Made by a program: the position numbers and the translations under genes. Below are positions 576-63,330 of a stretch of 64,000 nt of DNA, piece after piece (the stretch's first letter is position 1; each line of letters starts with the position of its first letter). Location: assembly GCA_025024175.1 (NCBI GenBank), contig QCXZ01000137.1:6820001-6884000 (forward strand). Reading direction: 5' to 3'. Source of the DNA: Rhyzopertha dominica. Taxonomy: Eukaryota; Arthropoda; Insecta; Coleoptera; Bostrichidae. The notes under the pieces are model-generated. The model ran no database searches, was not told where the DNA came from, and worked only from the letters and a program-made list of their open reading frames with translations.

Positions 576-716
576 GGTCACTTCCTTTAGGAAGTAGTAC
601 CCGTTAAGGCAGCTAGGTGGCTTTGCCATCGTCAGTGTAATGCTGAGAGATGGCATTGCCATCCTAAATTCTTACTTACATCATACCATTGCTTTGGTAT
701 ATAAGCAAAACCAGTT

Positions 717-820
717 CTATGCCGTGCTGTCTACACTAGACCTAAACTGCACTGATGAGCTGTAATGACAGCGAAATAGATCTATCTGCATTTGGTTGAG
801 GTGTAGACAGCACAGCATAG
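717..820 (+). ncRNA. Hammerhead ribozyme, type I, repeat unit 1
   Basis: CTGATGA lies at 752-758. Stem II is GCTGT/ACAGC (759-763 with 768-772, loop AATG), followed by GAAA at 773-776. The short palindrome TAGATCTA (777-784) can form a minimal stem III, then T785 and C786 give the U16.1-H17 cleavage position. Inner stem I pairs ACTGCA (746-751) with 787-792, with one mismatch at 791. After an internal loop, outer stem I pairs 717-736 with 801-820 with one mismatch. All invariant core nucleotides are present. Predicted cleavage is after C786. Because stem III is so short, self-cleavage may need a dimeric transcript, as reported for similar animal hammerheads. Confidence 0.85.
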
Positions 821-1068
821 ACATGCATTTTAATGTATGTCGGTTCTTGCCCGCTAGCAAAAAGTGCCGTGGCCGCCTGCTGTCAAATTGAAGTATGCAG
901 TTGCATGCCAATTTGTCAGGCCACAGGTCACTCCTTTAGGAAGTAGTACCCGTTAAGGCAACTAGGTGGCTTTGTCATCATGTCAGTGTAATGCTGACAG
1001 ATGGCATTGCCATCCTAAATTCTTACTGATATCATACCATTGCTTTGGTATATAAGCAAAACCAGTTG

Positions 1069-1170
1069 TATGCCGTGCTGTCTGCACTAGACCTAAACTG
1101 CACTGATGAGCTGTAATGACAGTGAAATAGATCTATCTGCAGTTGGTTGAGGTGTAGACAGTACAGCATA
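1069..1170 (+). ncRNA. Hammerhead ribozyme, type I, repeat unit 2
   Basis: CTGATGA is at 1103-1109 and GAAA at 1124-1127. TAGATCTA is at 1128-1135, with predicted cleavage after C1137. Inner stem I (ACTGCA with TGCAGT at 1138-1143) is perfect. Stem II is GCTGT/ACAGT, so its closing pair is a G-U wobble rather than G-C, which may lower activity. The outer stem I (1069-1087 with 1152-1170) has more mismatches and wobbles than in units 1 and 3. Confidence 0.83.
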
Positions 1171-1417
1171 GACATGCATTTTAATGTATGTCGGTTCTTG
1201 TCCGCTAGCAAAAAGTGCCGTGGCGGCCTGCTGTCAAATTGAAGTATGCAGTTGCATGCCAATTTGTCAGGCCACAGGTCACTCCTTTAGGAAGTAGTAC
1301 CCGTTAAGGCAGCTAGGTGGCTTGTCATCATGTCAGTGTAATGCTGACAGATGGCACTGCCATCCTAAATTCTTACTTACGTCATACCATTGCTTTGGTA
1401 TATCAGCAAAACCAGTT

Positions 1418-1521
1418 CTATGCCGTGCTGTCTACACTACACCTAAATTGCACTGATGAGCTGTAATAACAGCGAAATAGATCTATCTGCAGTTAGTTGA
1501 GGTGTAGACAGCACAGCATAG
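1418..1521 (+). ncRNA. Hammerhead ribozyme, type I, repeat unit 3
   Basis: CTGATGA is at 1453-1459 and stem II is GCTGT-AATA-ACAGC. GAAA is at 1474-1477 and TAGATCTA at 1478-1485, with predicted cleavage after C1487. Inner stem I pairs ATTGCA with TGCAGT through one G-U wobble. Outer stem I (1418-1437 with 1502-1521) is nearly perfect. The loop II change (AATG to AATA) leaves the core intact. Confidence 0.85.
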
Positions 1522-1534
1522 ACATGCATTTTAC

Positions 1535-4475: not shown

Positions 4476-6600
4476 ATATTCACATTTTTAATATTAATAA
4501 TACACCTTACCATCCATTTTTTCGAATTTATAAGCTGTCACAGCTGCTTTGTGGATTAGATGCTACCTATTAATATGCAATTTCATAAAATATAAATACA
4601 TGGCAAATACCCAATTATACGTGTATATGTCAACTTGTAAAAGGATTGTCTAAAATTTCCGAGATTTACTGTGTGATTTCAACTAAATTTGGAACAGTAG
4701 GTTTGCCTTTCATGAAGCCATGTTGTTTAGGCACTATCCTAGTAGTTACATTTAAGTAAATGCCTTTGATTAAATACATTCAAAAACCCTGGCAAAGTTG
4801 CATAAAAGCGATATGATTCTCATCAACGTTCTATCGTCAAATTTAAATACTGGGTTGACTCGATTCAATTTCCACATTGCCGACTAAACACTAGTACGTA
4901 GCATTCAATTAAGCAAGTGGGACTATGTAAAGATAATGTCACTGATGCTGTTCCGATGCCAATGTTGACACATTTTTTACAGAAGATCTTTTCATATTTG
5001 TTATCCCAAAGATTACTAATTGGATCGTATTGTGCACACTCGCAAAATGATCAGCAAACGCATTAACTATTTCCTCTTGTTAGTCCAGTGAATTACCACC
5101 GTAATTCACGAACCCTGGCTTTCTTTTGGTTGATAAATTCCTAATTTTTTTACTAACGGAGTGTCTATATTCTTCACAAACTTCACGATTTATTTGACGA
5201 TGTAATTTCTTGACAATATCAAAATGATACTGAAGTTTAGATTTACTATATCGATTCCAAGATTTATTCTCAACTTTGACTTTGTAATTACGGACCTAGT
5301 AAAGCCCATTGGATATTGAACAGATTTTGGAACAGAACTTTATCGTGGTACATTTTTATTTCCTATTGCCATATACAAATCTTTAATATTGGCTTTATGA
5401 AAGTTGTACTTCGAAAAACCATTATTCTTTAAAAAACGCTTTCGTCAACTGTGATTCGCAGTATAGCACGATCTTTGGACATGGGTGATGTCCACTCTCA
5501 GAGCGCAAGAGTACCTCTTGTTGACCTACATCACTATAGTTAGTTAATCAGTTGTCAAAATGCGGTTGGACCTTCATAAAAGTTAGTGAAAGTTAAATAC
5601 TATATTAAATCGTAGGCAACGTATATCTTTGGGTACATTTTAGCTTTGGTAACATGTATAATTTTCATCTATGTGGTAATGTATCCACCATAATTTAAAA
5701 AATTCTTACAGTTAAAAATAATTTTTTTTACTTGTGCTCGCATACACAATATACACTTGCAGTGTATATTCTCCTGCTATTGGCACCTGTAATTAGCAAT
5801 CGCTTACGTTAGCTCATTTCGCCGAAAATACAAATTACAAAACAAAAAAAATCGCATGGATCATAATTTCGACTATGATTAGAAACAACGTGTTAATAAA
5901 ATTATGATGAGATGTAAACAGCTGATTCAAACTCATGCAACATTATGTTGTACATGACAAGATGGTTTCCACTATTTGTGGAAGGTATTTGACAAATTAT
6001 TATTTTCATTCGAATCTAGGTATTTTGCATGATAGAGCCGTTCCTTGCTTAGGTAAGGTTGTCAACACTCAATAATCAATTACATTACAAAACGACAGTA
6101 ATTATATGGTAGTTGCTAACCATCTTCTGGTCTATTGTCCGAAAAAATTCTGTGTAAATTGAGCACACTCATAAATTAGAGGTGCAAACTAGTATTATGT
6201 CCCAGTAGGTTTTATAGTTTGCCAGAGAAACATGATGGAAATTGTAAGTACTTATACGACAATAACATCTAGGCAGTAAACTATCTGCAATTTTTGCAAA
6301 ATGACAGTATTTTACTTAGGTGTTGAGGTTTTTTCTAGATAAGAACATAGTTACATCCAAACAAAATAGCAGTGAATACAGCTGTATGATTACAATCGGT
6401 ATAAACTGCAATTTCCACTTAATACAAAATATTAGCATTGTCTTGGTTACTTTATTTTTGCTAATTACAACATTTATTAAAAATCTAATTTATTCAAATA
6501 GCGAAAAATAGATAGGATTTCAATTTATGGCAAATGCAATAAAAATGCTTCTGCTGCTGCTCGTCAGGCAAATTTGCAATTTGTAAGNGATATGAATTAA
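4476..6600. other. Intergenic stretch, no feature recognised
   Basis: AT-rich with many stops in all frames. I see no gene, structured RNA or clear repeat. Confidence 0.4.
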
Positions 6601-8585: not shown

Positions 8586-9470
8586 CTATAAATGAATTTT
8601 CCATTGCCCAGGATATCCTCCAAAAATCATCAGTAGAAAAGATTCTCGAAAAATCTCTTTCCAAATTGGCTTTCGGGAACACAGGCGGTTAGGAGGTACA
8701 TTCTGCAAGATCTTGTGAAACTGGACATAAATTAGGCATAATATGGTGTTTGAGGAGTTCTTTTTATTATAATTGGAGGAGTGATATTTGCTAAAACAGT
8801 CAGCCAAGGTAAAGGAGTAGATTTAATAGTGCCAGAAATGATTCTCATTGCAGTGTAAAGATGTGAGTTTACTTTGGAAACATGTGCACTATTCATCCAA
8901 ACAGGACAGCAGTATTCCGCCGATGAATAAACTAAGGTCAATGCAGACATTTGCAGTGTTTTTGCGTTAGCACCCCAAGCCAATCCAGCTAATTTATACA
9001 ATATGTTGTTCCCTGTCTTTATTTTCTGTGTTACTTTTTGAATATGTGTCTTAAAAGTTAAAGACGTGTCCAAAATAACACCAAGGTATTTTGGTAGAAA
9101 CTGTGTTTGAGTTTTATGTCACTGAGAACCACCTTTGATTCCAAATTTTTATGATTATTGGCCAAATGAAAGCAACAGATTTCGGTATTCGAAAAATTTA
9201 AACGTAATCACCGCTCTTCAAAATAGTTGTTCATAGTTGACAGATCGTCAATTAATTTCTCTTCTAATACCTTAAATTGTTCATGTTGACATTCTTTCGA
9301 CCAGCATGGGATATAATTTGCACGAAAACCCCGAGGATAAGTTCTTTTCGCTGCTGCTTTAATAACTCCTATAAATCTATTGTAATTATTACATGTGGGG
9401 TGGAACCATCGAAGATTAGTAACAACTTGTTTACTAATCATTAATGTTATTGAATACAAATTGTTCAAAA
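8586..9470 (-). mobile_element. Second LINE fragment, minus strand, internally deleted
   Basis: Reading the minus strand 5' to 3', 9468-9208 encodes a segment with WSKECQ and KAAAKRTYPRG, typical of the end of a LINE endonuclease. Next, 9073-8732 encodes DTSLTFKTHIQKVTQKIKTG, then YSSAEYCCPVW and AMRIISGTIKSTPLPWL, the thumb/C-terminal region of LINE reverse transcriptases. The RT catalytic core that should lie between them is missing, so the copy carries a large internal deletion. The remaining codons to 8586 are frame-shifted. It lies head to head with the plus-strand LINE piece at 6950-7840 and may or may not be the same family. Confidence 0.75.
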
Positions 9471-10099
9471 ATAATATTTCATTTAATTGAAAGAAACAAT
9501 TGATGTAATTATTAATTATAACCGATACCTCTGCAAATGTATTTTGGGTTGCATCTTTATTCGCACCAGGCTCATTATCATTCGTGAAATTACCTATACG
9601 AATAAATTGTGGAACGATAAATTGTTCTTATTGTACATTCTAAAGTATTTGAAAGGTATGACATGTTCGTTAAAATACCTTGGAACATATGCAGTTCATT
9701 GCCCCAAATGACAAATTCTATGGAAAAAAATACATTGGGCCTGCATGCTACTCATTTTAACAGGGACAACAGGTCAGATAATCTTGAGGCGTCCGATAAT
9801 AATAATTAGTATACAACCAAGTTTTGAAAGATTTTCCTTAAAATAGCTTTCAATTCTGTAAAATTCCACAGTCATCACGTTCACAATCGGGTGCACCAAA
9901 CAATTAAGTATTCATGGCGTTCTGTATTTGCATTTAAACGAAGGCCGTCAACAAACGAATAAACATCTGGATGACGATTGCAACTACCATGTAAACTGGA
10001 TAGTTATCGTGAGCGGATTTAGTCGAACCGGCGGCGATATCAACGAGTGCGTTTCCTCCCATCGTCGTTTCCAGTTCCACTTGGTAAACAAACGCTTTT

Positions 10100-13517: not shown

Positions 13518-13680
13518 TAATATAAGATAATATTTTGTCGGATAGATCGCTTTGACAAAGATTACAGGTGTAATCGAAACGTCAGACTATTAACTTTTTG
13601 TCAGTGTTTTCAAGTGACAGCGATCTATCCGACAAAATATTATCTTATATTTATGGACGCTGAAAGCATTCACCCTCGTA
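13518..13680 (+). mobile_element. Short hairpin element with hammerhead-like motif
   Basis: A long perfect inverted repeat pairs AAGATAATATTTTGTCGGAT... (about 13,524-13,553) with its complement at about 13,619-13,648. Inside lies TTGACAAA, a perfect GATTACA-GG-TGTAATC hairpin, then GAAACGTC, which looks like a decayed hammerhead core (CTGATGA replaced by TTGACAAA). The element is bracketed by TACAATCCCT at 13,508-13,517 and 13,681-13,690, consistent with a target-site duplication. A similar motif occurs in both arms of the palindrome at 25,678-26,182. Confidence 0.5.
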
Positions 13681-13690
13681 TACAATCCCT

Positions 13691-13990
13691 TAAAATGCAT
13701 GTCTATGCTGTGCTGTCTACACCTTAGCCAACTGCAGATAGTACTATTTCACTGTCATTACAGCTCATCAGTGCAGTTTAGGTCTAGTGTAGACAACACG
13801 GCATAGAACTGGTTTTGCTTATAATACCAAAGCAATGGTATGAAGAAAGTAAGAATTTAGGATGGCAATGCCATCTGTCAGCATTACACTGACATGAAGT
13901 AGTTCCCGTTAAGGCAGCTAGGTGGCTTTGTCATTATGTCAGTGTAATGCTGACAGATGGCATTGCCATCCTAAATTCTTACTTTCTAAA
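13691..13990 (-). mobile_element. Solo inverted retrozyme-like copy with target duplication
   Basis: The minus strand carries one hammerhead region of the ~350-bp repeat family. It is followed by a second partial unit in the opposite orientation (from about 13,896: AGTAGTTCCCGTTAAGGCAG), giving a tail-to-tail structure. The element ends at the same point as the tandem array (...GACATGCATTTTA). It is flanked by TACAATCCCT at 13,681-13,690 and 13,991-14,000, an exact 10-bp direct repeat. That points to insertion as a discrete mobile unit rather than array expansion. Confidence 0.75.
13703..13806 (-). ncRNA. Hammerhead ribozyme, type I, minus-strand copy
   Basis: On the minus strand the core reads CTGATGA (complement of 13,765-13,771), stem II GCTGT-AATG-ACAGT, and GAAA (complement of 13,747-13,750). 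TAGTACTA follows (13,739-13,746), then TC with cleavage after the C opposite G13737. Inner stem I ACTGCA/TGCAGT (13,731-13,736 with 13,772-13,777) is perfect and the long outer stem is kept. The stem III palindrome differs from the tandem copies (GTAC in place of GATC) but stays self-complementary. Confidence 0.82.
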
Positions 13991-14000
13991 TACAATCCCT

Positions 14001-28336: not shown

Positions 28337-31300
28337 ATGAACAGGATATTCAGGTATTTAATTCTGGTGTACCTAGCCCTGGTGGCTAGAAGTGACGAAG
28401 ACTGCCCTTCGAAATGTGTGTGCAAGAGCAGCACTAAAGACAGTGCGAACTGGATAAAACCCATGATGAAAGTCAGATGTGGTGATACGGAGAAGATTCA
28501 AAGTTTAGACGAAATAAATTTGTTGATTATAGCAAATGAAACTGTTCAGTTGTAAGTAATCTGACTAAACCCCACCCAGTTACGCTTTTATGACTTCACT
28601 TCCATTTGTTTTGCAGGAATCTGTCAAATAATCACTTAAGTGTGTTTAGGCCAAATATACAATTACTAGCGTTACAAAAACTGTAAGTACCTAAAATAGT
28701 TTTACCATAACTGCAGCAAGAAGTGTTTTGTCATGTTTGCAGAGATTTAAGTAGAAACGGCTTGAGTATTTTACAAAACGATCAATTCGAGAAAGTGCCA
28801 AGCTTAAGGAGACTGGACGTATCGGGAAACAGCATAAAGCATATCGAAGTGCTAGCATTTAACGGACTGCGAGACCTTGAACGACTGAAATTAAACCAAA
28901 ATCAGATTAGTACTATTTATAAAGGGACATTTAAGCCTTTGTATTCTTTAAAGCAACTGTAAGTATTATATAGTATGTAGGTATTTAGCTCAATTAAGGG
29001 GAAAAATAATAGTGGCAGTATAATAATTGATAACTTTAACTACAGTTTAAATGTTTTTTTATTATTGCTACAAATATGTGTGAAAATATAGTACTCTAAA
29101 TAAAAAAAAGTATTTCAATGATGTAGAAAGCAACAATTTGACATTTTATTAAATATATTGCAAAACTCAATAATGGGATGTTTCTACACATATTGCCATA
29201 ATGATACATTTTCATTTTTAAAATGCAAATAAGAGTAACCGATATAAAATGTATGCCTAATTAATATGCAGCATCATAAGATACTATTTTATTGTTTAAA
29301 TATTCACTTAAAATTGTCAGTATCACTAGACAGACATATCCTTTCTGTGAGCATGATGTATATTTTTTCTTTATTCTCTGAAAATTTCAAATATATTCTA
29401 TTATATTCTGCACATACAATTTATACAATTCATCTCTAATATTAATATCCATGAGCAAAATTTTTGCCGAATGTTCAAAATATTATATGCCATTTATGAG
29501 TTTTATTTCTTAGACATTCATACGTTAAATACCAAGCTATAGACCATTACTCGAGATTTGAAAATGTTAGTTTTTTAAGTTTTAAGACTTCCAAATAATA
29601 ACATAATGTGTTGTTCATTGTCGTTCGATAATATCCAAATTTTTCCATAGAGTCACATTTTGTTTCCAGGGACATATCAAACAATCCTTTGGCATGTGAC
29701 TGCGAGCTTCTGTGGCTTTTAGACTGGTCTTCCAAAGCCTCAGTCAAGCTCATTTCGAACCCAAAGTGCAACAATCCCCCAACATTTAAGGGCGTATCGC
29801 TGCGAAAATTAAAGGTCGGTGTGGACATCCACTGCAAATCGCGAGCGAGCAACAGAGAATTGCTGGTGGTAGATCTGCACCCAGCCCACAATCAGGTGGT
29901 ATTCGAAGGAGATCCATTTAAAATCGAGTGTGGTGCTCCCAGCATAATAGATGCTTATGACCCAATCGAATCCAGAGATACACACCTCGAATGGACGTGG
30001 TTGGATTCAAACCCACAGGATCATTTCAAAAATATCAACATAGAAAATCGATTCCTACCGGAAAATGGTATAATTCGGAGTTCCCTAACTATAAACAGGC
30101 TCGAGGGGAATCACACAGGCATATGGAATTGTCTGTTGATTTCGAGTCAGGGGAATTACACAAAGGGGATTACCGTNGTCGTAATCTCCGATGAAACTGA
30201 GTATTGCCCGATCGAAGTTACCAGCAACAATAAGGGAACATATAGTTGGCCACACACCATAGTAAACTTCACTGTTACAACTTCTTGTGAATCTATACAG
30301 TTGAACAGCGAAGTTGCCCATCAAAAAGCGTCTTATTTTTGTTCCCCCGAAGGACAATGGGAAAATCTAAACACCTCAGCATGTCCATACGTATCCAGTA
30401 CCACGAAAATCCTCGAGCAGTTCTCTAAAGTAAATTTGACCTTCACAAAGGAGAATATCTTGGAGAGCGCGAAACATTTCAAAAATCAGACTTCAAATTT
30501 GGCTGCTCTTAAAGATGTCATGGATCTGGTGTTTGTTGTGAGGACTATACAGAATTATTTGGAATACTTGGATTTTGATAAGGAGCTTGTGGGAATTTTG
30601 ATGGACATTTTGAATGGTGTGATGAATATGGCCAGGTCTTTCATTGCNGATGCTGATATTGTTGATGGTAGTTGTGGGAAGATGGTTAAGGCAGTTGAAG
30701 TTCTTTCTGGGCATGCACCATTAACAACATTGCACAAGGTAATATTTCTGTTTAAAGCATATTTTGTCAGCAAGAAAACTGCCATAGGAATATAAAAGTA
30801 ATAATTGATAAATTGGTAATAATAATAAACAGTAACAGTAAAATAATAACGGATCAAGCAAGCCATAATTTTATTTTTTTAACCTGCTTCATTGTGAAAA
30901 TAGGCTTCAACTATGAATGTTTTGTGTTCTACAGTAAAAAGTATTGCAGCCCACAAATAAAAATGAGAAGTTCTGAACTAAGCTAATCTCATTTTGTAAT
31001 AAAACACAGAAAAAGATTGGAATAATGAAACTCATTAACGACCGACATACAGGTCAGTTTGTTGCACCACCACTGCAACATGACTACAAAAACCTTCACT
31101 GGCTTACTTGACCCGTTTTTTCATGAACACATATTTTCAATATCAGAAAAGTATAAAACTTGAGTCAATTTTTTTTTTCAGAACAACATTGTGGCTGAAC
31201 AGTTTCCAGTAAAGCAGGACGGCTTTACAGGTATAACATGCACTTGGTATGTTGGTGGGGCAAACAATCAAGAAAGGGAACTGTATTGTGGTACCACAAA

Positions 31301-34300
31301 CCATACTAAACCTCTTACTTTGAATGACAAGGTTTTGGATTCTTCGGTACAGATTCCCGCAACATTATTTCAACAGTTGGAAGATCAGGATATCATTCTG
31401 AGTCACAACATACAACATATCTCGGTTGTGATGTATAAGAACAATAAGTTTTTTCCTGTAAATGAACAAAGGAGGAAGAAGGATGATGTTACATCGGCTG
31501 TTGTTGGAGTAAAGTTAGGTGAGTTTGTTGTTTGTAACAGTACTGATAGAGCAGGTAGATTTTCTTTTGAATTTGAGAAATTTTTGAGACTTTGAACAAC
31601 CATTAGTCAGAAAATTTCACTTTTCCAATAACTAACACTTCACATTGGCAGTTTTTTCCTTTTTACTGCCTTTTTCATATTACATTCTTTGTGCTAAAAA
31701 TTTTAGATATATTTGGACATGCCAAATGCAATATCAAAATTAACATGTAGAAATAAAAATACAGGTACAAAATAGTCTAAGAAGAAAAAGATACTNGAAT
31801 GCAGANAACAATAAAGAAATTGTGANCTGAAGAAGGCGGGAAAAACCAAAAACCACCAAAACGTTGTTGACAGCAAGCAAAAGCAATAGAACTGAACTGT
31901 ACCATCACCATTTTTTTAAATCGTCTTTTGTTTTAAAGCTATATCCAACTTTTGAACAATGCAACATTTCTTCATTCCTTAATATCTCGCTTTGGTGTGT
32001 AGATACAAAAAAAAAACTGTGAAGACATTTTTGACAGATATTTTTATTTTGAATCCAGTGGCGTATTCATAATTTTTGTAGGGGGTCACATTTTTGAAAT
32101 AAAACAAACCGTAGTTAGCTTTGCTATGGCTGAAAAACCCATTTTTTTTCTGTTTATGAAAATGTATACGCATTATTGTTGAGTTTTTTGTCAAAATGGA
32201 TGTAAATAATGTGATGTAAAACAATGCATAGGTACTGAATTCCAAATAAACATCATTAGTTACATGGCATCCTTGATTACCAACAAGAATATTGCATTAA
32301 TCTTACTTATGTATCCAAATGGGTATATTATATTCTTTTTATGCAATTAAAATTTTTACTTAATAATATAAATTGTTTTGTGTTTTCTTGTTCCATAGCC
32401 TCCCAGACGTAATCGTAAATTCTGATTAAATTACTAAAAAAATTTATCAGAATTGTTGAAAATGAACCCAACAATGTATATATTTTCTTAATTAAAAAAA
32501 AATAGGTCTTCTTGACTGTAGCAAAGCCAACTACGGTTTCCATTTAAAAAATGCAACTTTGTGTTATAATGAAAAAATATGACCCCCAAAAAAAATTCTG
32601 AGTATGCCAATGGATTGAAAATAACCATATACATCAAAAATGTCTGCAGATTTTTGTATCTAGATTCCTAAGCAAGATATTGAGAATTGAAGAAATGTAT
32701 TCATATTTGGCTAAATAAAAGAATATTCTCTACTGCAAAAATTATTATTATTATTATTATTTTATCAAACTTTTTCAGTTAACATGACTGTGGTCAACCT
32801 AACAGACCCGATATACCTCATGTTGAGAAGTCCACCGATATCAGGGCAGGACTTAACCCGCCCAACACCAGTGTGGTGGGACACCACCCTCAACAACGGC
32901 AGAGGTGATTGGTCGACGGAGGGATGTCAATTAAGCCACGAAGTACAAGAAAATTTAGTTTTCTATTGCAAGCACTTGGGATACTACGGCCTCATGCAGG
33001 ACATAACGAATTTCCACAGCATGCAAGCCGGTGCGCGGTTCAAATTCTCACATCCCGCCATTTATGTCGGAAGCTCCCTGTTGATCGTGCTGCTGTTGAT
33101 AGCGATCATGACCTACTTGTTTTGCTACAACGCCATTCAAATGCCGAAGAAGGCCAAGCATTCCGTGATTAATATTTGGATAGCGATCTCGTTACTGTGT
33201 TTTTTGTACGTTTTCGGCATTTATCAGACGGAAAACGTGAAGTTGTGCCAATCCGTTGGGCTGATGTTGCATTACTTTACTTTGTGCTCGTTGCTTTGGA
33301 TGTGTGTCGGTGTCAATTATATGTATAAACGACTGACGAAGAACGATAGTATTGGATTGCAGGACGACGAGTTGCCTTCCGATCAGCCGGTGCAGAAACC
33401 AATTTTGGGATTGTACCTCGTTGGGTGGGGTATTGCGCTTATAATTTGCGGGATATCGGGTGCGGTGAACATGAAAGAATACGCTTCACACTCGTACTGT
33501 TTTTTAAACTCAGGGCCCGCATTAAGTGCATTGATAATCCCGTTTTCCATACTTTTAGTGTTTCTTTTCATATTCTTCCTTCTGATACGGTGCGCGATTT
33601 ACAATGTAGACACCAACGGACATTTGAGTGAAGGGACTCAGGCTACAGAAAACGTAGATTTGGATTTGCTCGAACCTAATTTTCCTAATGTAGATTCCCG
33701 AAGTTTACGCACTAATTCTACAAAAACTGCGTCTACAGAAGTCGAAGACCCAGAACACGCGCCTGCCGCCCAATTAAAGGCCTACATGTTATTCTTGGTC
33801 ATCTACATCCTGACTTGGTTGAGCTGTGCCTTAGCCACGGTTCAACCTTTCAAACCATTTTGGTTCAAAGAAGATCTCTTCAGTATCATTTTCGCTGTTT
33901 GCGCTTTTATTTTGGGCATGTTTACACTTTTCTTTTATTGCATAGCGAGAAACGATGTTCGAACACAATGGATGGTATTCGCACGCAACTTCAAACGAAG
34001 AAATCTCTGTTTTCGCACCAGAAACGTGTCTGACACGCCTGCTAATGTCACTCAAATTCAAATAACCCCACCCATAAACAATCCCCTTCAGGAAATTCAA
34101 CAGGTGGTTTCGAGATCGAGCAGTCGCAGTTCTAGCCATACCAAGACGAATTCTCACACTTCCAACATACTGAAGGCAGCTGTTGATCTGAATGGATCTG
34201 TGTACAGCGAAGTGTGTGGAGCGAAAATTAACAATGTCAATTTGGTTGTGTTGCATCGGCAGCAATATCGTTCACATCACACGGTTCCTAATTTAATTGA

Positions 34301-35243
34301 AAACCCGACTAGTACAGCGGAAATGTTCTACAATCCCCATCAGAGTACCGTGGCTCGCAAATTCTTCAAGAAACAAAAACGTCATATCATGAAACGAAAC
34401 AATTTAGCACCAATTATACCACGAGAAGTAAACAGCGACAATACTTCCATCATATCATGTTCTAGACCGATCAGGAATGGTTCCAGCATGGATAGGTCAA
34501 TATTTGGGAATAATTCAAAGGTTAACAACACTAATATTCATGTGGAGCATGTACGCAAATCAAAACATCGAAACCCGAACATACTGTCGGATAGCTGCGA
34601 CGAATATGAAGCCATAACGAACATCCCCGTAGAAAAAATCGTTATAAACGCGGAAAGACTGCGCCGACGTGACCTGATGCGACACAGAACAAAAAAGAAA
34701 CAAAACGTTCCCCTCAAAGAATCCCCACCCAGAGAAAACAACATGAGATCCGTATCCCAACAGTGCACCTTAGAGTACAGCTCGGAAACCATCTCCGACT
34801 CGATTCTAGACCGAACGAGCCCGGAAAAACCCGCGATAGAAATGTTCAACTTGGAAAAAGAATGCCTGAGAAGGGAAAACAGCCCCGCCTACACAGAAGA
34901 ATCTCACTATTGCAAAATCGAAGGGGGCTCCAAGTGGTGCGCGGATTCGACCGCTAGCAGCGTGTCGGGTCCTAGGATTTACGTGAATCCCTCGCACGAC
35001 ATCGTGTTCGCGAAATCCGTGCAGAGCAGAACGAGCAGCGTTTCCGCCAGCGAGCTCGACGAGCTTTATCAGCAGATCAAGTGCGGTCCGATGTACAGAC
35101 GGTCGCATAAAAGTCCCCACAGACACCGGCATAGTCCGAGTCGATCCGATTCGGAGATAAACGTTTGCGTTCGGGACGTTAGGCTCAGACGAACCGCCAC
35201 TTGCAGTGATGATATTAGCGATAAAGTTGAAACCACTGTATAG
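28337..35243 (+). CDS. Adgra: Adhesion G protein-coupled receptor, group A (ADGRA3-like)
   Basis: Exons 28337-28551, 28617-28682, 28743-28958, 29670-30738, 31182-31518 and 32779-35243 are in phase and encode 1455 residues. Order: signal peptide (1-19, FRYLILVYLALVARS); Cys-rich LRR cap; LRRs (about 72-165) whose introns all interrupt Leu codons; LRR C-cap with NPLACDCELLWLLDW; Ig-like domain (about 230-330); hormone-receptor motif ending FCSPEGQWENLNTSACPY (about 335-395); GAIN-like region; seven TM segments (about 730-1035); and a basic/Ser-rich tail of about 420 residues ending ETTV, a class I PDZ ligand. LRR-Ig-HRM-7TM with C-terminal ETTV is the ADGRA (GPR124/GPR125) architecture. At the expected GPS the sequence reads CKHLGYYG, without the usual H-L/T scissile triad, so autocleavage is doubtful. 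Two N bases (30,177; 30,648) leave residues undefined. Confidence 0.92.
31921..32715. mobile_element. Foldback repeat in Adgra intron 5 (copy 1)
   Basis: The left arm (about 31,975-32,130: TTAATATCTCGCTTTGG..., GGGGGTCACATTTTTGAAAT) is the inverse of the right arm (about 32,515-32,700: ...ATATGACCCCCAAAAAA, GCAAGATATTGAG). Arms include CTTTGCTATGG and its complement at about 32,518. A second copy of the left half plus interior runs from about 63,541 to the window end, sharing TCGTCTTTTGTTTTAAAGCT. No coding capacity is seen. Confidence 0.72.
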
Positions 35244-53929: not shown

Positions 53930-56900
53930 ATGAACAGTATACGCTGCGTTTTCAGAAAAAAGGCAACTAAACATTAGTTAAGTAACGATTAAAAAGTTTT
54001 TATTCATCTTTTGTTTTTAGGCCGCGTCCAGGACGTGGTTAAAGCAGTTATCCACTTGTTCAACGGAAAAACAAATTCATGTAGAAACGGAAATTTCAAA
54101 TTCATGCCAACATACACCGCTAACTCTACTGAGTGAAGATGAAAAAGCTATGAAAGATACAGGTTAGTATCACGCTAAGCTTGTAATTTAAGGTATGGTC
54201 ACATAATCATAATACGTATGTGTTTGTCTCATAAATGTTATCTGCATTTCACAATATTATTTGTATAGTAATTTTTTGTTATTTACAGTTGCAAGATTTG
54301 CCAAAGAACAAATAAGTCCCTACGTCAGAGAAATGGAGAATGAGGGAAAATTAAAGTCTGGTATCATAGACGCCCTATTTCAAAATGGAGTAAGTTAAAA
54401 AATAAAACAAAGATTACACACAACATAAAGCAAAGATATATTTCAAAAATTATTTATGCTGCGGTATAAAGAAGAGAGTTTTTGACATTAAATAAATATT
54501 TAAGTGTGATTAAAATTTGAATATATAAAGTTTTCAATAAATTTGTATTTCAAGATTAATTTTTAAGCCATCATGCATCAGTAATTCAAATCAATAAAAG
54601 TTAGTCAAAATTCGAATGCAATGAAAATCGATCATTAATCCTATTGACAATTGACATTATTTCTGTGAACCAAAAATTATTTTTTGCATATATTGGAAAC
54701 TGCCTCTGTCACGGAAATTCGTACGTTTAAGAAATGAATGTAAGCATCAATTGTATGTTGATTAGAACAATTTAAATTCAGTAACCTTTGCATAAACTGT
54801 ATACACAAAATACATAGAGTGAATCAATTAAATTTTTATACAAAAATAACATTTAATGCAACAGCTAAATGAGTTTTGAAGAATTTGATTTTTTATATGG
54901 TGTTCTACAAAACAGAATCTGTATTTTTTTATATAGCAGAAGAGCAGGACGGAGAAAATAATGATCATGATAATGTTTATGCAAACAAGGCGAGTGTAGA
55001 TACTGAAGGTTTGACTAGTAAAAAAAATATACAAATAGGGAATAGTTATTTGTATTATAATAAGTAAAGAAAAGTAACGTTTTTCTTTAAAAAAATTAAA
55101 GAAAAATTTATGTTCTTTAACAATAATATACATAATTGTTTTTTGGAAACTTAATAGAAATAATACATTAAATTTTATAAAAAATAATTTAAAAATATAT
55201 TATTTATTAGGTACTATTCATAACTAAAATAAAGTTAACATATGATTATACCAATGCAACAGTTCACAACTTTATTAAGGATCAAGGGTTTTTTATATAC
55301 ATTAGTAGACATCATAGAGTTACACAATGGATTGTCCCAATGTGTGTGTGCAACCCCTTTTTCTTTCTTTTTTTACAGTTTATTTGGTGACAATTTTGTT
55401 AACATTTTGTATAAACTTGTGTCCAACAATTTTTGGACAGCAAACTGTCCTGTACTTAGTGAAATTTTGAACATAAAGTTTTACTTTTAACACATTATTA
55501 AATTGGGTTTTATATCAACTCGGTTACATAAATTACTTACTGTCTTACACCAACTAGATAAATATGGATACAGTATTTATTACTTTAAATGGTGCATTTT
55601 TGTTAAACAACATAAAAGGGAGTATTCCTTTAAATAAGGGCCATAGATTCAAAAAATGTTATCAAACCATTCAAAAATTTATTCGCACAAAACTTCTAAA
55701 CCAAAAACCATTAAGGGTAGTTAAGCCCTCACCCCCATGATAGGGATTAAAATTCTAATTGTACAGTTCAAGGTAGCACTACTTCAAACATCGGTAAAAA
55801 TTAAAAAAAAATATTGCAAAAAACTATTCTTTACCGTTCATCTTCAAGAAGCTGTAACTCAATAACGAGGGCACAGATCTCAAAATGTGATTGTATTTGA
55901 TACACCAATGCAAGAATTTATAGCAAATATTTTTTGTATCATAACTATGTCTCTCCTTTACAGAAGCAAAAAAAGATGTATTTTTGCTACAACATGTAAT
56001 GTTAGAACATTGTATTTTTTAGATAAATTAAGATTCCCAGGAAAATGTTAGAACTAAATATCTATAAAGCTAATTATTGTTTTAAATGTTTCGATAGCAG
56101 TATTAAATCAAAGAATGCCTTTATCAACAGGCAAATAATATTTTGCTTGCAGCTTCTTGGAGTAGAAATAGACACCAAATATGGAGGAGCAGGTTGCAAT
56201 TTTATGACCACAGTACTTGTCATAGAAGAACTCTCCAAAGTAGACCCTTCTGTCTCGCTGCTGGTCGACATACAAAATACTCTAGTAAATGCAGTCATAA
56301 AAAAATTAGGCACCCAAGAACAAAAAGACAAATATCTCCCAAGGCTCGCAACAAACACGGTAACAAATTTATAATTGCATATTTTATTCATCTTACCCTA
56401 TAGGGTAGTGTGCATGTTTTGCATTAAGCGAGACGACGTCCGGTTCAGACGCCTTCTCTCTGAAAACTACCGCCACAAGAGACGGAACCGATTTCATCCT
56501 GAACGGATCGAAAATGTGGATATCCAATGCCGATGTAGGAGGCTTGTTTTTAGTGATGGCAAATGCAAATCCCTCAGCCGTAAAATTTAAGTGAAATCCT
56601 CATAAGCATTTATAATAACATAGATTTTCAGGGTTATAGGGGTATAACGTGTTTCATAGTTGAAAGAGACACTCCGGGGTTCTCGGTGGCAAAACCGGAA
56701 AAAAAATTGGGTCTCTGCGCTTCGGGAACTTGCATGTTGAATTTTGATAATGTTCGAGTTCCTGAAAGTGCTATTTTGGGAGAACTAGGACAAGGATATA
56801 AAATTGCGGCCGGATTCCTAAATGAGGGGAGGATTGGAATCGCTGCTCAAATGTTGGGATTGGCACAAGGATGTTTTGATGCAACGATTCCGTATACGTT

Positions 56901-58725
56901 GGAAAGAACGCAGTTTGGAAGCCCTATTTTTAAATTTCAAGTAAGCATTTTATAGAAAATTAAGCAGATACAACTTAAAAATTACTTTGGTGAGCTCTAA
57001 AGTAATTAGGGTCTAATACTGAAAAATCTTTAAATACAATAATAATAGGTTTATAACTTTTCATCCTTAATATAGAACTTGAAAATATTTACACCTATTT
57101 TTATTGCATATAGTAAAGTGCCTTGCTTAGCCTAGATTTAGCAAGTTTATTTTTAAATATGAAGACTACTAGTATTTTTTGTAAGCTTTGAGTGAAGTGC
57201 ACTTTAGTATGTTCTAAAAAATCAATAAAATATCTAATTTCCTTGAAAACATATATCAGATCAGATCAAAATTAACTAAAATGCCTTAGTGCAAACTTCA
57301 TGCTCCCTGGGTGACAAGTAAAGCAAATAGTACACTGTGTTATACTAAACAAAAGATATAGAATACCTTTCAGCTTTTTAGGGATATACCTCATAAATTA
57401 CATAAAATAGTTTTATTATTGCAATAAAAAAATTGTACATAGAATAAAAGTTTCTGCTAATAGAGATTTAATTAAAAAACTGCACAATAGCTTAACAATC
57501 ATTAGAATTTGTTGCATTGTGAAGTTGACTGTACCTACCTATATAATACTTAAGTGATCTGTTACACATACAAAATTAATTCATTCAATGCACAAAAATC
57601 AATTTCAATCGACAGAAATCCGATTATAATATTCAAACAACATAAAATTAAATGCAAGGAATTTGAAAAAATGGATTAAATGATGGTCAATCTATTTTTC
57701 TTTTGTCCTTGTCGTTTGTTGCATTGCATATTTCCTAATAACTTGAAAGATTGAAAGAATCTTAATTATACAAAGATTTAGGGGTACTTAGTATATTGCA
57801 TGTACACTCAAATTGTCCAACACCTTTAATATGTTACCTGACAATAATAGTAATGACAATAGCGTTATTTTCCACTAAGGATGATATTATTACTGGCAAA
57901 GGTGCAGAAAAGATGAATGCTTTAGTACTATCATACCTTACTGTTTTGTAAAGCTATTAATGAGTTACTGGTTTGACGGTAGACATTACGTAGATGCAAA
58001 ATTGTCATTATATGGTGTGTCTCAGGGGTCAAGTCCCGGGTCGTTGTTGGTAGCTATTAATACATGTAGCCTGTTAAAATATATTAAATATTAAAAACTA
58101 CATCTTTGTCTTCATGACGCACAGATATATTATAGTTTTGACTTGATGACTTTGATACACAATTTAAGTACTAAGACCATGTTCCGGAATTGAAATCTGA
58201 ACTTACGGTACAAAGACTTGTGTCGTCAATTATATTTGCTAATACCCTTCGAGTCACATTTTAAACTAAATACTTATACAAATTTTCTATTGGTTCCCTA
58301 TCTTCATATGTTATATATTTTAATTCTTTATCCTTCGTTATTCTCTAAACTAGAACTTTCAGCAGTTTGATACTGTATTTTAAAAAACTAATCCTACAAC
58401 TTGTTGTTTTTAGACGATGCAACACCAAATTGCGCAGATAGCAACTCAACTAGAGTGTGCACGTTTGTTGGTATATAATGCAGCTCGTTTAGTAGAAGCA
58501 GGTGAACCTTTTGTCAAACAAGCATCAATGGCGAAATACTATGCAGCTGAAGTAGCACAACAAACAACAATCAAATGCATAGACTGGATGGGTGGGGTTG
58601 GATTCACCAAAGACTTCATACAGGAGAAATACTACAGAGACTGCAAAGTGGGAAGCATATACGAAGGAACATACAATATACAGCTCTCAACCATTGCAAA
58701 ATACATAGAAAAGGAATATGCATGA
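53930..58725 (+). CDS. Acadsb: Short/branched-chain acyl-CoA dehydrogenase, mitochondrial
   Basis: FAD enzyme that dehydrogenates 2-methylbutyryl-CoA and related acyl-CoAs in isoleucine breakdown, passing electrons to ETF. Exons are 53930-53962, 54021-54162, 54289-54389, 56153-56359, 56409-56579, 56632-56940 and 58414-58725, giving 424 residues (human 432). The N-terminus [11 protein letters not shown]...SRTWLKQL is basic and fits mitochondrial import. Landmarks are [26 protein letters not shown] (FAD/substrate loop), [42 protein letters not shown] and [10 protein letters not shown]. The catalytic base is Glu405 in IYEGT, equivalent to human Glu414. Exon 1 needs a GC donor (AAG|GCAACT), its weakest point. 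Exon 5 must start at the second of two AGs five nt apart to keep frame. Confidence 0.92.
54390..56152. other. Acadsb intron 3
   Basis: AT-rich with long A/T runs; no gene or mobile element recognised. Ends in the acceptor TTTGCTTGCAG. Confidence 0.4.
56941..58413. other. Acadsb intron 6
   Basis: Begins GTAAGC and ends GTTGTTTTTAG. AT-rich, with no recognised element. Confidence 0.4.
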
Positions 58726-59152: not shown

Positions 59153-60061
59153 TCAGTCAGAATCCGAGTTTATCCTCAACGAGACGACGGATTTTGTTAT
59201 GAATTCGGCATCAGATTCTGTGTAAGTAGGTTCTTTGTTTGACTTCCAAATATCGTCAGAAACGAGGTTTATCTTATTCGGTGGGAAAATATGGATGGCG
59301 GTGTCATTGAAGATGTCATAAAACTTGAAATTATTTATCACAGCCAGTTCTTCTACGTAAGGTGAAATGTTTAGTATGTATTCAGCGCTATTCGCTAATT
59401 GTCTCACAGAGTTTGATTCTAAAATTAAATTAAAACTGTTTGAAATGATGACACAGTAACTAAGCTGTAGTCCCCAGTTAGACCATAAAAGATTGTTACA
59501 TAACTGTTTTGGACAATGCGGAAGAAAAAAAATTGTCGTTCCTGTATCTTTAACTGGATATTTTCCTTCAGAATTTTCTGTTAATATGTTACAGTCAAAT
59601 TCTCTCAAAACTAAGTGCTCAAATGATGTGAATACGGGATCAAATACCGACACATTTACTCCCAACAAGTCTTTTAAACATAATAACAGCGCCAGCTGGT
59701 AACGTGATATTATACACTCACCAAATCTACCCAACCCGAAACAAACTATTTCTTTGATATTTGGATTTTGTAAAATACCAAAAGCTTCTCGCAAAGATGC
59801 TTTAAAAGAAGCGTATACGTCTGATGAGAGCAGATCTTCTTTGGCAGATTGTACTCTCCTAGAAAAAGTAAGGTTAGAAAAAAGGATATGGTGGTCTGTT
59901 ACCGCTTACGCTTACCTTGCTGCTGTGTCTGTACTAACACAAGGGGAACTGTTAATATTAATTAATGGGTAGTCTGCGGAATGGTTTTGCACTTTTTTAT
60001 TCCCTCTGCGTTTGTTACAAACCAATTTAAAATCCTCTTCGCCCCGGTCAGAAATAGACAT
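59153..60061 (-). CDS. Srrd: SRR1-like protein (2 exons)
   Basis: Minus-strand exons 60,061-59,916 and 59,858-59,153 join in phase 2, giving 283 residues. Exon 1 starts MSISDRGEEDFKLVCNKRRG (acidic then basic). Exon 2 has VQSAKEDLLSSDVYASF, then the SRR1 domain: IKEIVCFGLGRFGECIISRY, QLALLLCLKDLL, YDP-like VFDPVFTSFE, FFLPHCPKQLCNNLLWSNW and IISNSF. This order is typical of the SRR1 family (plant SENSITIVITY TO RED LIGHT REDUCED 1, animal SRRD), reported in circadian output and heme-related regulation. The biochemical function is unclear. The CFGLGRFGE segment resembles a nucleotide-binding loop but is unproven. Its stop lies 25 nt before the FMC1 ATG. Confidence 0.85.
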
Positions 60062-63189: not shown

Positions 63190-63330
63190 ATTTAGTGGAA
63201 TATTTTAGTATTATTCCTTCATTCCCGTTATTCCCTCATTTATTCCACTTTACTCCCTGTATTCCACTAAATATTCCCCTTACTCCATGTATTCCACCAA
63301 TTATTCCACTTACTCCCTGTATTCCATCTA
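63190..63330. repeat. Minisatellite, TACTCCCTGTATTCCAC-type
   Basis: Three to four imperfect copies of a unit around 33 bp built from ATTCCACTTACTCCCTGTAT. In one frame it reads as repeats of LTPCIP; this is an artefact of the repeat, not a protein. Confidence 0.7.

Follow-up and report, generated by a model that had tools for sequence, protein, structure and literature searches.

In animals, non-LTR retrozymes combine a type I hammerhead ribozyme in every unit with unit sizes of 170-400 nt, tandem copies, a GC content below 50% and target-site duplications of more than 4 bp (PMC7229834). Circular RNAs have been proposed as their template and Penelope-like elements (PLEs) as a strong candidate, though only a candidate, for the helper, while the defining paper leaves open how these retrozymes re-enter DNA and by whose enzyme (Cervera and de la Pena 2020, PMC7229834). 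Animal retrozymes, their duplications and the suspected part of PLEs are already known from this work (PMC7229834). As to PLEs, the Anolis enzyme is described as cutting and extending both target strands (Frangieh 2024, PMC11167929); in the same account its cDNA synthesis begins at two internal positions of the RNA, for which no homology to the cut DNA is needed, and a dimeric form of the enzyme is predicted (PMC11167929). The Penelope insertions described from Adineta contain adjacent inverted pLTRs, most often head to head, one of which may end in a tail, and are flanked by duplications of 8-10 bp (PMC3846280).

A repeat of the beetle Rhyzopertha dominica shares the structural features listed above for metazoan non-LTR retrozymes. 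The preliminary description of this DNA chose the right known kind in calling it a retrozyme family, as it has a type I hammerhead in each 351-nt noncoding unit, a GC content of 0.44 and dispersed copies with duplications; its further suggestion of an undescribed system went too far for the repeat itself. The beetle copies depart from the published metazoan account, which describes tandem copies (PMC7229834), in that most of those examined consist of two head-to-head arms with two fixed, unlike ends. In the open-access literature, searched mostly by listings, no account of retrozyme insertions with two arms and a pair of fixed ends came to light.

A hammerhead within a repeated noncoding unit is likewise described for Dolichopoda pDo500, newt satellite 2 and the Schistosoma hammerhead satellites, and a small palindromic stem III is common to the beetle repeat and the newt type (PMC7229834, PMC8490949). 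Unlike these satellites as described, the beetle insertions are dispersed and have fixed ends, with only one of 98 arms longer than four units. The published model of plant LTR retrozymes also features hammerhead-processed circles as retrotransposition intermediates (PMC7761336). These plant elements are characterized by a type III hammerhead, LTRs, a primer-binding site and 4-bp duplications (PMC7761336), whereas the beetle repeat has a type I fold and longer duplications, of 9 bp or more, which disfavours its assignment to them. Metazoan non-LTR retrozymes lack an LTR, a primer-binding site and a polypurine tract, and none of these was noticed in the beetle repeat.

Hammerhead units in the window

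The window, that is, the whole stretch of 64,000 nt that was analysed, comes from positions 6,820,001-6,884,000 of the forward strand of contig QCXZ01000137.1 (assembly GCA_025024175.1). Tandem Repeats Finder delineated an array at 576-1533 with a period of 351, 2.7 copies and 95% matches. This bears out the preliminary description, which had reported a tandem repeat of about 350 bp with a hammerhead in every unit: the motif CTGATGA occurs at 752, 1103 and 1453, and we obtained the same predicted cut positions, C786, C1137 and C1487. Each unit contains a 5-bp stem II, GAAA, the palindromic stem III TAGATCTA, TC and a long two-part stem I. The features of the array are as follows, with A designating one of the two recurrent end sites discussed below:

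576 to 925, plus strand: repeat unit 1, 350 nt; the 5' end of the array is abrupt, at unit phase 1, and lacks an inverted arm
926 to 1276, plus strand: repeat unit 2, 351 nt, the reference for unit phases 1-351
1277 to 1533, plus strand: repeat unit 3, partial, ending at site A (phase 258)
717 to 820, plus strand: type I hammerhead of unit 1, its stem I being extended; predicted cut C786/T787
1068 to 1171, plus strand: type I hammerhead of unit 2; predicted cut C1137/T1138
1418 to 1521, plus strand: type I hammerhead of unit 3; predicted cut C1487/T1488
736 to 806: Hammerhead_HH9 match, 23.9 bits, E 3.2e-3, below the gathering score of 52
1087 to 1157: Hammerhead_HH9 match, 24.8 bits, E 1.7e-3, below the gathering score of 52
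1437 to 1513: Hammerhead_HH9 match, 28.4 bits, E 1.2e-4, below the gathering score of 52

The covariance-model check that the preliminary description had proposed gave a divided answer. At the gathering threshold Rfam returned no match in the whole window, but a relaxed search (1,301 bases, E up to 10) returned nine, of which three are the above matches to RF02275 (Hammerhead_HH9) and the rest belong to microRNA and other small-RNA families. The segment 706-832 folds at -51.3 kcal/mol, as against -28.35 (sd 3.23) in 200 shuffles (z -7.1); self-cleavage is predicted from the sequence together with this fold. The longest stop-to-stop frame inside the array has 84 codons. Being noncoding, without an encoded reverse transcriptase or GIY-YIG domain, the array is not itself a Penelope-like element.

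The preliminary description had overlooked a second copy in the window, as well as the inverted second arm that is present in most of the genomic copies examined:

13690 to 13983, both strands: second copy, two head-to-head arms (a minus arm and a plus arm)
13690 to about 13897, minus strand: minus arm, from its site A end at phase 259 to phase 53
about 13896 to 13983, plus strand: plus arm, from phase 15 to site B at phase 102
13703 to 13811, minus strand: hammerhead with the stem III palindrome TAGTACTA (GTAC form); predicted cut 13737/13736 on the minus strand
13680 to 13690, plus strand: left target-site duplication, ATACAATCCCT, its last base being the first base of the copy
13990 to 14000, plus strand: right target-site duplication, ATACAATCCCT, separated by six bases from the site B end

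The duplication around this copy is perfect over 11 bp. Its anatomy is of the kind usual among the copies examined, whereas the array at 576-1533, a single arm without a target-site duplication, is atypical. The tandem picture drawn earlier was real as to the array but captured only half of the anatomy, the more informative part being the head-to-head arms with their fixed, unlike ends. When the flanks of the window array were compared with the fetched loci and the remaining window, a single weak match was recovered. The other features of the window are:

8732 to 9627, minus strand: frames without a Pfam match that resemble fragments of a LINE-type reverse transcriptase
24982: class III aminotransferase, domain match
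29632 to 35243, plus strand: exons of an adhesion-type GPCR with hormone receptor, GPS and 7tm_2 domains
50690: PBDC1, domain match
56027 to 56955: acyl-CoA dehydrogenase, domain match
59153 to 59905: SRR1-like protein; the highest-ranking named matches come from Tribolium, Tenebrio and further Coleoptera
63241 to 63326: minisatellite, period 30, 2.8 copies (Tandem Repeats Finder)

Anatomy and variation of the copies

The anatomy of the copies, their ends, their duplications and the variants they share can be read directly from the genome sequence. A 35-nt pattern of the hammerhead core, with up to three mismatches, occurs at 5,242 places (2658 forward and 2584 reverse) in the 479-Mb genome of 138 contigs, and the reversed pattern, used as a control, at none in the same genome; the retrozyme hammerhead pattern likewise found no match in a collection of viral contigs. 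The copies are dispersed over many contigs. We annotated 60 loci (the window array, L002 and L009-L066) from two samples, each with its own bias: a set of 40, made up of the window array and the 39 best-scoring others among 40 places scored out of 3971 candidates, which favours long copies, and a set of 20 positional loci, taken as the earliest occurrences of an exact hammerhead along a single contig, which favours the GATC form of stem III. Arms in this annotation include only segments lying within 30 nt of the main array.

Two arms in head-to-head orientation are present at 38 of the 60 loci (25/40 in the best-scoring set and 13/20 in the positional set) and one arm at the remaining 22; none is tail to tail. 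After trimming, 90 of the 98 arm 3' ends lie at two fixed sites, with 47 at site A (binned as phases 254-270, 39 of them at 257-260) and 43 at site B (phases 96-112, 28 of them at 102), while 8 lie elsewhere. The two sites are almost always combined: the 38 trimmed pairs comprise 33 AB, one AA (L039), one BB (L054) and three with an unclassified end, so that 33 of 35 classified pairs are heterotypic (p 1.8e-8 under independent, even choice). Before trimming the same 38 pairs were scored as 28 AB, one AA and nine with an end outside the bins; after this first count the bins were widened by 1-2 phases and the ends trimmed because the annotation had extended into the duplications. Outer segments shorter than 30 nt on the left side or 18 nt on the right side, or with less than 86% identity, had been removed for the first count. 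The sampling would miss short BB copies lacking a hammerhead but would catch AA copies, and AA was seen once, whereas with independent choice its count should be about half that of AB.

Site A (phase ~258-260) lies just 3' of the hammerhead hairpin, 46-48 nt past the cut, and site B (phase ~102) just 5' of the hairpin; the stretch of about 157 nt between the two sites holds the whole hammerhead. The predicted fold of unit 2 in circular form has an energy of -133.5 kcal/mol (z -7.4, 100 shuffles); it places B ahead of the hammerhead hairpin, among 16 unpaired nucleotides, and A beyond this hairpin, at the loop of a small one. The sequence beyond either site is AT-rich, and neither A nor B carries a poly(A) or simple tail.

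Target-site duplications flank 29 of the 38 two-armed copies, as opposed to 27 of 1406 mispaired flanks, and are absent from the other nine. Their matched lengths range from 9 to 19, with 12-14 in 24 of the 29; some matches extend a few bases into the element, and the true stagger may therefore be slightly shorter. Among one-armed copies they were found in only 4 of 22 (control 17/462) and are absent from 18, including the window array. Where the two arms meet, microhomology averages 2.05 nt, compared with 0.68 in random pairs, and reaches 3 nt or more in 15 of 38 junctions versus 5.9%. In the 33 AB copies the arms extend over 0.14 to 3.75 laps of the unit, with no difference in length between A-arms and B-arms (Wilcoxon p 0.23). 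Their 5' ends are scattered round the unit, and the arms cross the predicted cut site 166 times. A pile-up of 5' ends at the ribozyme cut, sought because it is expected if linear monomers were the usual template, was not seen: 3 of 98 lie at phases 211-213, a slight excess over the 0.8 expected, which makes a few linear templates possible.

The hammerhead core is the best conserved part of the unit, with variation of 1.0% at core positions, 3.0% in the hammerhead region and 3.6% in the rest. The second window copy and 55 of the 60 loci supplied 56 hammerhead domains, 54 of them distinct, in which 96.6% of the cells are paired and 12 cells have changed on both sides, compared with a mean of 4.1 in shuffles that do not keep the relatedness of the domains (none of 500 as high) and with 0-4 in slid controls. 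In one stem I pair A-U is replaced by G-C in eight rows of the domain alignment. This covariation supports the hammerhead fold. Several rare variants of the domain are common to L023 and L044, which may derive from the same source lineage of recent date.

The stem III loop has two main forms in the 137 copies of the 40 best-scoring loci, GATC (79) and GTAC (50), both palindromic. That two bases have changed together and left the palindrome intact suggests that self-complementarity is under selection, something a dimeric hammerhead would require. The form is uniform in 38 of these 40 loci, where 12.1 would be expected and the highest of 5000 shuffles gave 23, a test restricted to this set because of the bias of the positional loci to GATC; it also agrees between the two arms in 16 of 17 cases. 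One of the two mixed loci is L038; the other, L016:2458-6232, is the longest array with 10.8 units, in which GATC and GTAC units are intermingled; it may have grown or been reshuffled by exchange after insertion.

Mean differences amount to 2.9% between units of one arm, 3.6% between the arms of one locus and 5.7% between loci (segments shorter than 40 or 50 nt, or below 85-86% identity, being excluded from distance counts). Rare alleles, those present at no more than one additional locus, recur in 352 of 1069 comparisons within an arm, in 124 of 550 between the arms of a locus and in 42 of 9500 between loci. At six loci (L049, L026, L019, L032, L056 and L023) the arms are 0.0-1.0% apart, as against 4.0-5.8% to other loci; examples of the closest arms are those of L026 (0.4% versus 5.8%), L032 (0.7% versus 5.7%) and L019 (0.6% versus 4.0%). 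On a pooled measure the arms of the same six are 0.0-1.4% apart, L049 tying with other loci over 57 shared positions. These six may be read as insertions of recent date, which again relies on the divergence just given. Of all 34 loci compared, there are only six in which no other arm is closer than the partner arm, one of them by a tie over 57 nt, and ten in which the partner arm is not closer than average; the closeness percentile of the partner arm averages 0.37, versus 0.5 by chance, and lies below the 10th percentile at nine loci. Decay has affected the older copies, and short overlaps are poor in signal. Taken as a whole, the shared variants indicate that the units and both arms of a locus tend to trace back to one monomer.

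Template of the insertions and competing explanations

In our judgement the repeat is probably a metazoan non-LTR retrozyme whose circular RNA is copied, often for more than one lap, from both target strands by a PLE-type enzyme. Under this mechanism transcripts of the array would be cut by the hammerheads into 351-nt monomers and these joined into circles. Processing to circles of about 350 nt would find indirect support in the descent of units and both arms from one monomer and in the 166 crossings of the cut site. A PLE-type reverse transcriptase/endonuclease would bind one circle near the hammerhead hairpin and make cuts in the two target strands, offset from each other by roughly 10-14 bp, whereupon cDNA would start from the two target ends at the fixed internal sites A and B. 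Both cDNAs would run round the circle for anything from a fraction of a lap to almost four laps and would then be joined, often at a microhomology of 1-4 nt. The product would be a pair of head-to-head arms with one A end and one B end inside a target-site duplication, multimeric wherever copying exceeded one lap.

We infer the circle, the enzyme and the simultaneous use of one circle from these products. On the last of these we are evenly divided: a single RNA circle may template both target strands in one event, with two PLE reverse transcriptases sitting at the base of the hairpin, starting at A and B, chasing each other round the same circle and leaving cDNAs that are joined head to head. 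If so, the near-obligatory pairing of A with B and the variants common to both arms would be the genomic record of a one-circle event, and the hammerhead hairpin would be both a ribozyme and an integration docking site.

The main rival retains two-strand copying of the PLE type but takes as its template linear multimeric transcripts that escaped cleavage. The 166 crossings of the cut site are equally allowed by uncut multimers, and unprocessed RNA is taken as the main substrate of the Anolis PLE in vitro (PMC11167929). Against this, the units of an arm differ by 2.9% on average, so that many of the possible source arrays are not uniform, and yet several insertions are nearly identical in their units and both arms, and the GATC/GTAC form is uniform in 38 of 40 loci. 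Linear multimers need a fresh, uniform array each time, whereas the circle needs no further assumption; we consider linear templates unlikely as the general explanation.

The remaining explanations dispense with a PLE-type enzyme. Head-to-head geometry is that of twin-priming inversions, in which a LINE mobilises a SINE-like RNA and a second primer anneals inside that RNA to give a 5' inversion, and the lengths of the duplications would fit such an origin. Twin priming, however, leaves the position of the inner start variable and places the 3' end within a poly(A) or simple tail, just as a LINE-mobilised SINE has such a tail at its single 3' end; here both ends are fixed, unlike and devoid of such a tail, and 33 of 35 pairs join A with B, which makes LINE-type mobilisation improbable. 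Tandem units and the mixed variants of the 10.8-unit array at L016 would be natural in ordinary satellite DNA spread by unequal exchange and local inversion, but the copies lie on many contigs, are flanked by duplications and have fixed ends, and long arrays are exceptional (one of 98 arms above four units), leaving a satellite origin with very little credence. Inverted arms within target-site duplications also recall a foldback or MITE-like DNA transposon with inverted termini. Since the outer ends A and B differ in sequence, however, there is no terminal inverted repeat for a transposase, and the arms vary in length and wrap round the unit. We regard such a transposon as the least probable source of the copies.

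Relationship to Penelope-like elements

The beetle copies resemble PLEs in their head-to-head inverted copies, target-site duplications and AT-rich targets, as well as in having two internal starts of reverse transcription, which in the beetle are deduced from the arm ends, and an extension of the end on one side only (PMC11167929, PMC3846280). They differ in that the repeat encodes no protein and in that the stretch between the starts spans about 157 nt and contains the whole hammerhead, as compared with a PLE tail of 30-40 bp (PMC11167929, PMC3846280). The duplications are mostly 12-14 bp long, versus 8-10 bp in the Adineta examples (PMC3846280).

The beetle genome has a PLE family of its own. 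The segment L058:301-2147 comprises a 548-codon open frame and, after it, the hammerhead-like motif described below; the frame contains a reverse transcriptase domain (RVT_1, E 1.4e-11) and a weak GIY-YIG match (17.4-19.4 bits, below the Pfam cut-off of 22.6). Among the best 120 of 742 relatives of this protein nearly all have PF00078 and/or PF26215 and some PF01541, and most of the named ones come from beetles; a 463-residue match in a public contig is 99% identical. The family has at least 82 matches in the genome (79 scored of 17,178 candidates), with some frames of 874 codons, and it was probably active recently, as many of these copies are nearly identical (95-100%). Further PLE families are indicated by weak matches of PLE type in the flanks of L052, L056, L033 and L066 (27-37% identity, E 4e-4 to 6e-6).

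Matches to the last kilobase of L058 end at query positions 644-662 in 44 of 45 cases, 29 of them exactly at 648, the remaining one being the query itself. In a DNA search favouring the longest matches, 14 PLE pairs within 6 kb are head to head and none tail to tail, and both arms of these 14 end at the same site, unlike the A and B ends of the retrozyme; a protein search gave eight head to head, none tail to tail and three on the same strand. Only one end site was thus seen in the beetle's own PLE family, and no sequence common to the retrozyme and the PLE was established. With its pairs ending alike on both sides, the L058 family is a candidate helper of the retrozyme and no more.

A minimal hammerhead-like motif is present at L058 2057, 110 nt past the stop of the open frame. 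Its stem I has 5 bp and its stem III, AGCGCT, is palindromic; the 3' end of the PLE lies 58 nt past its predicted cut. This motif was first noticed by eye, and the descriptor then written, which allowed one unpaired base beside stem II and required stem I, matched it alone in 325,985 nt of both strands with the retrozyme arrays masked, while an earlier, stricter descriptor found no match in the flanks and the window. All 45 matches to the last kilobase span the motif, with 98-100% identity over the whole match. Its stem II has a U-C mismatch adjoining the core, Rfam gave no hammerhead match for it, and its region folds no better than shuffles (z -0.84).

The retrozyme copies of this beetle document many individual integration events. 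They link the retrozyme to two-strand copying of the PLE type and give its two start sites almost to the nucleotide, and the return of a retrozyme to DNA can thereby be tested with a single RNA, a single enzyme and a single target DNA. A possible reason for the inverted copy and the one-sided tail of PLE insertions also emerges from them.
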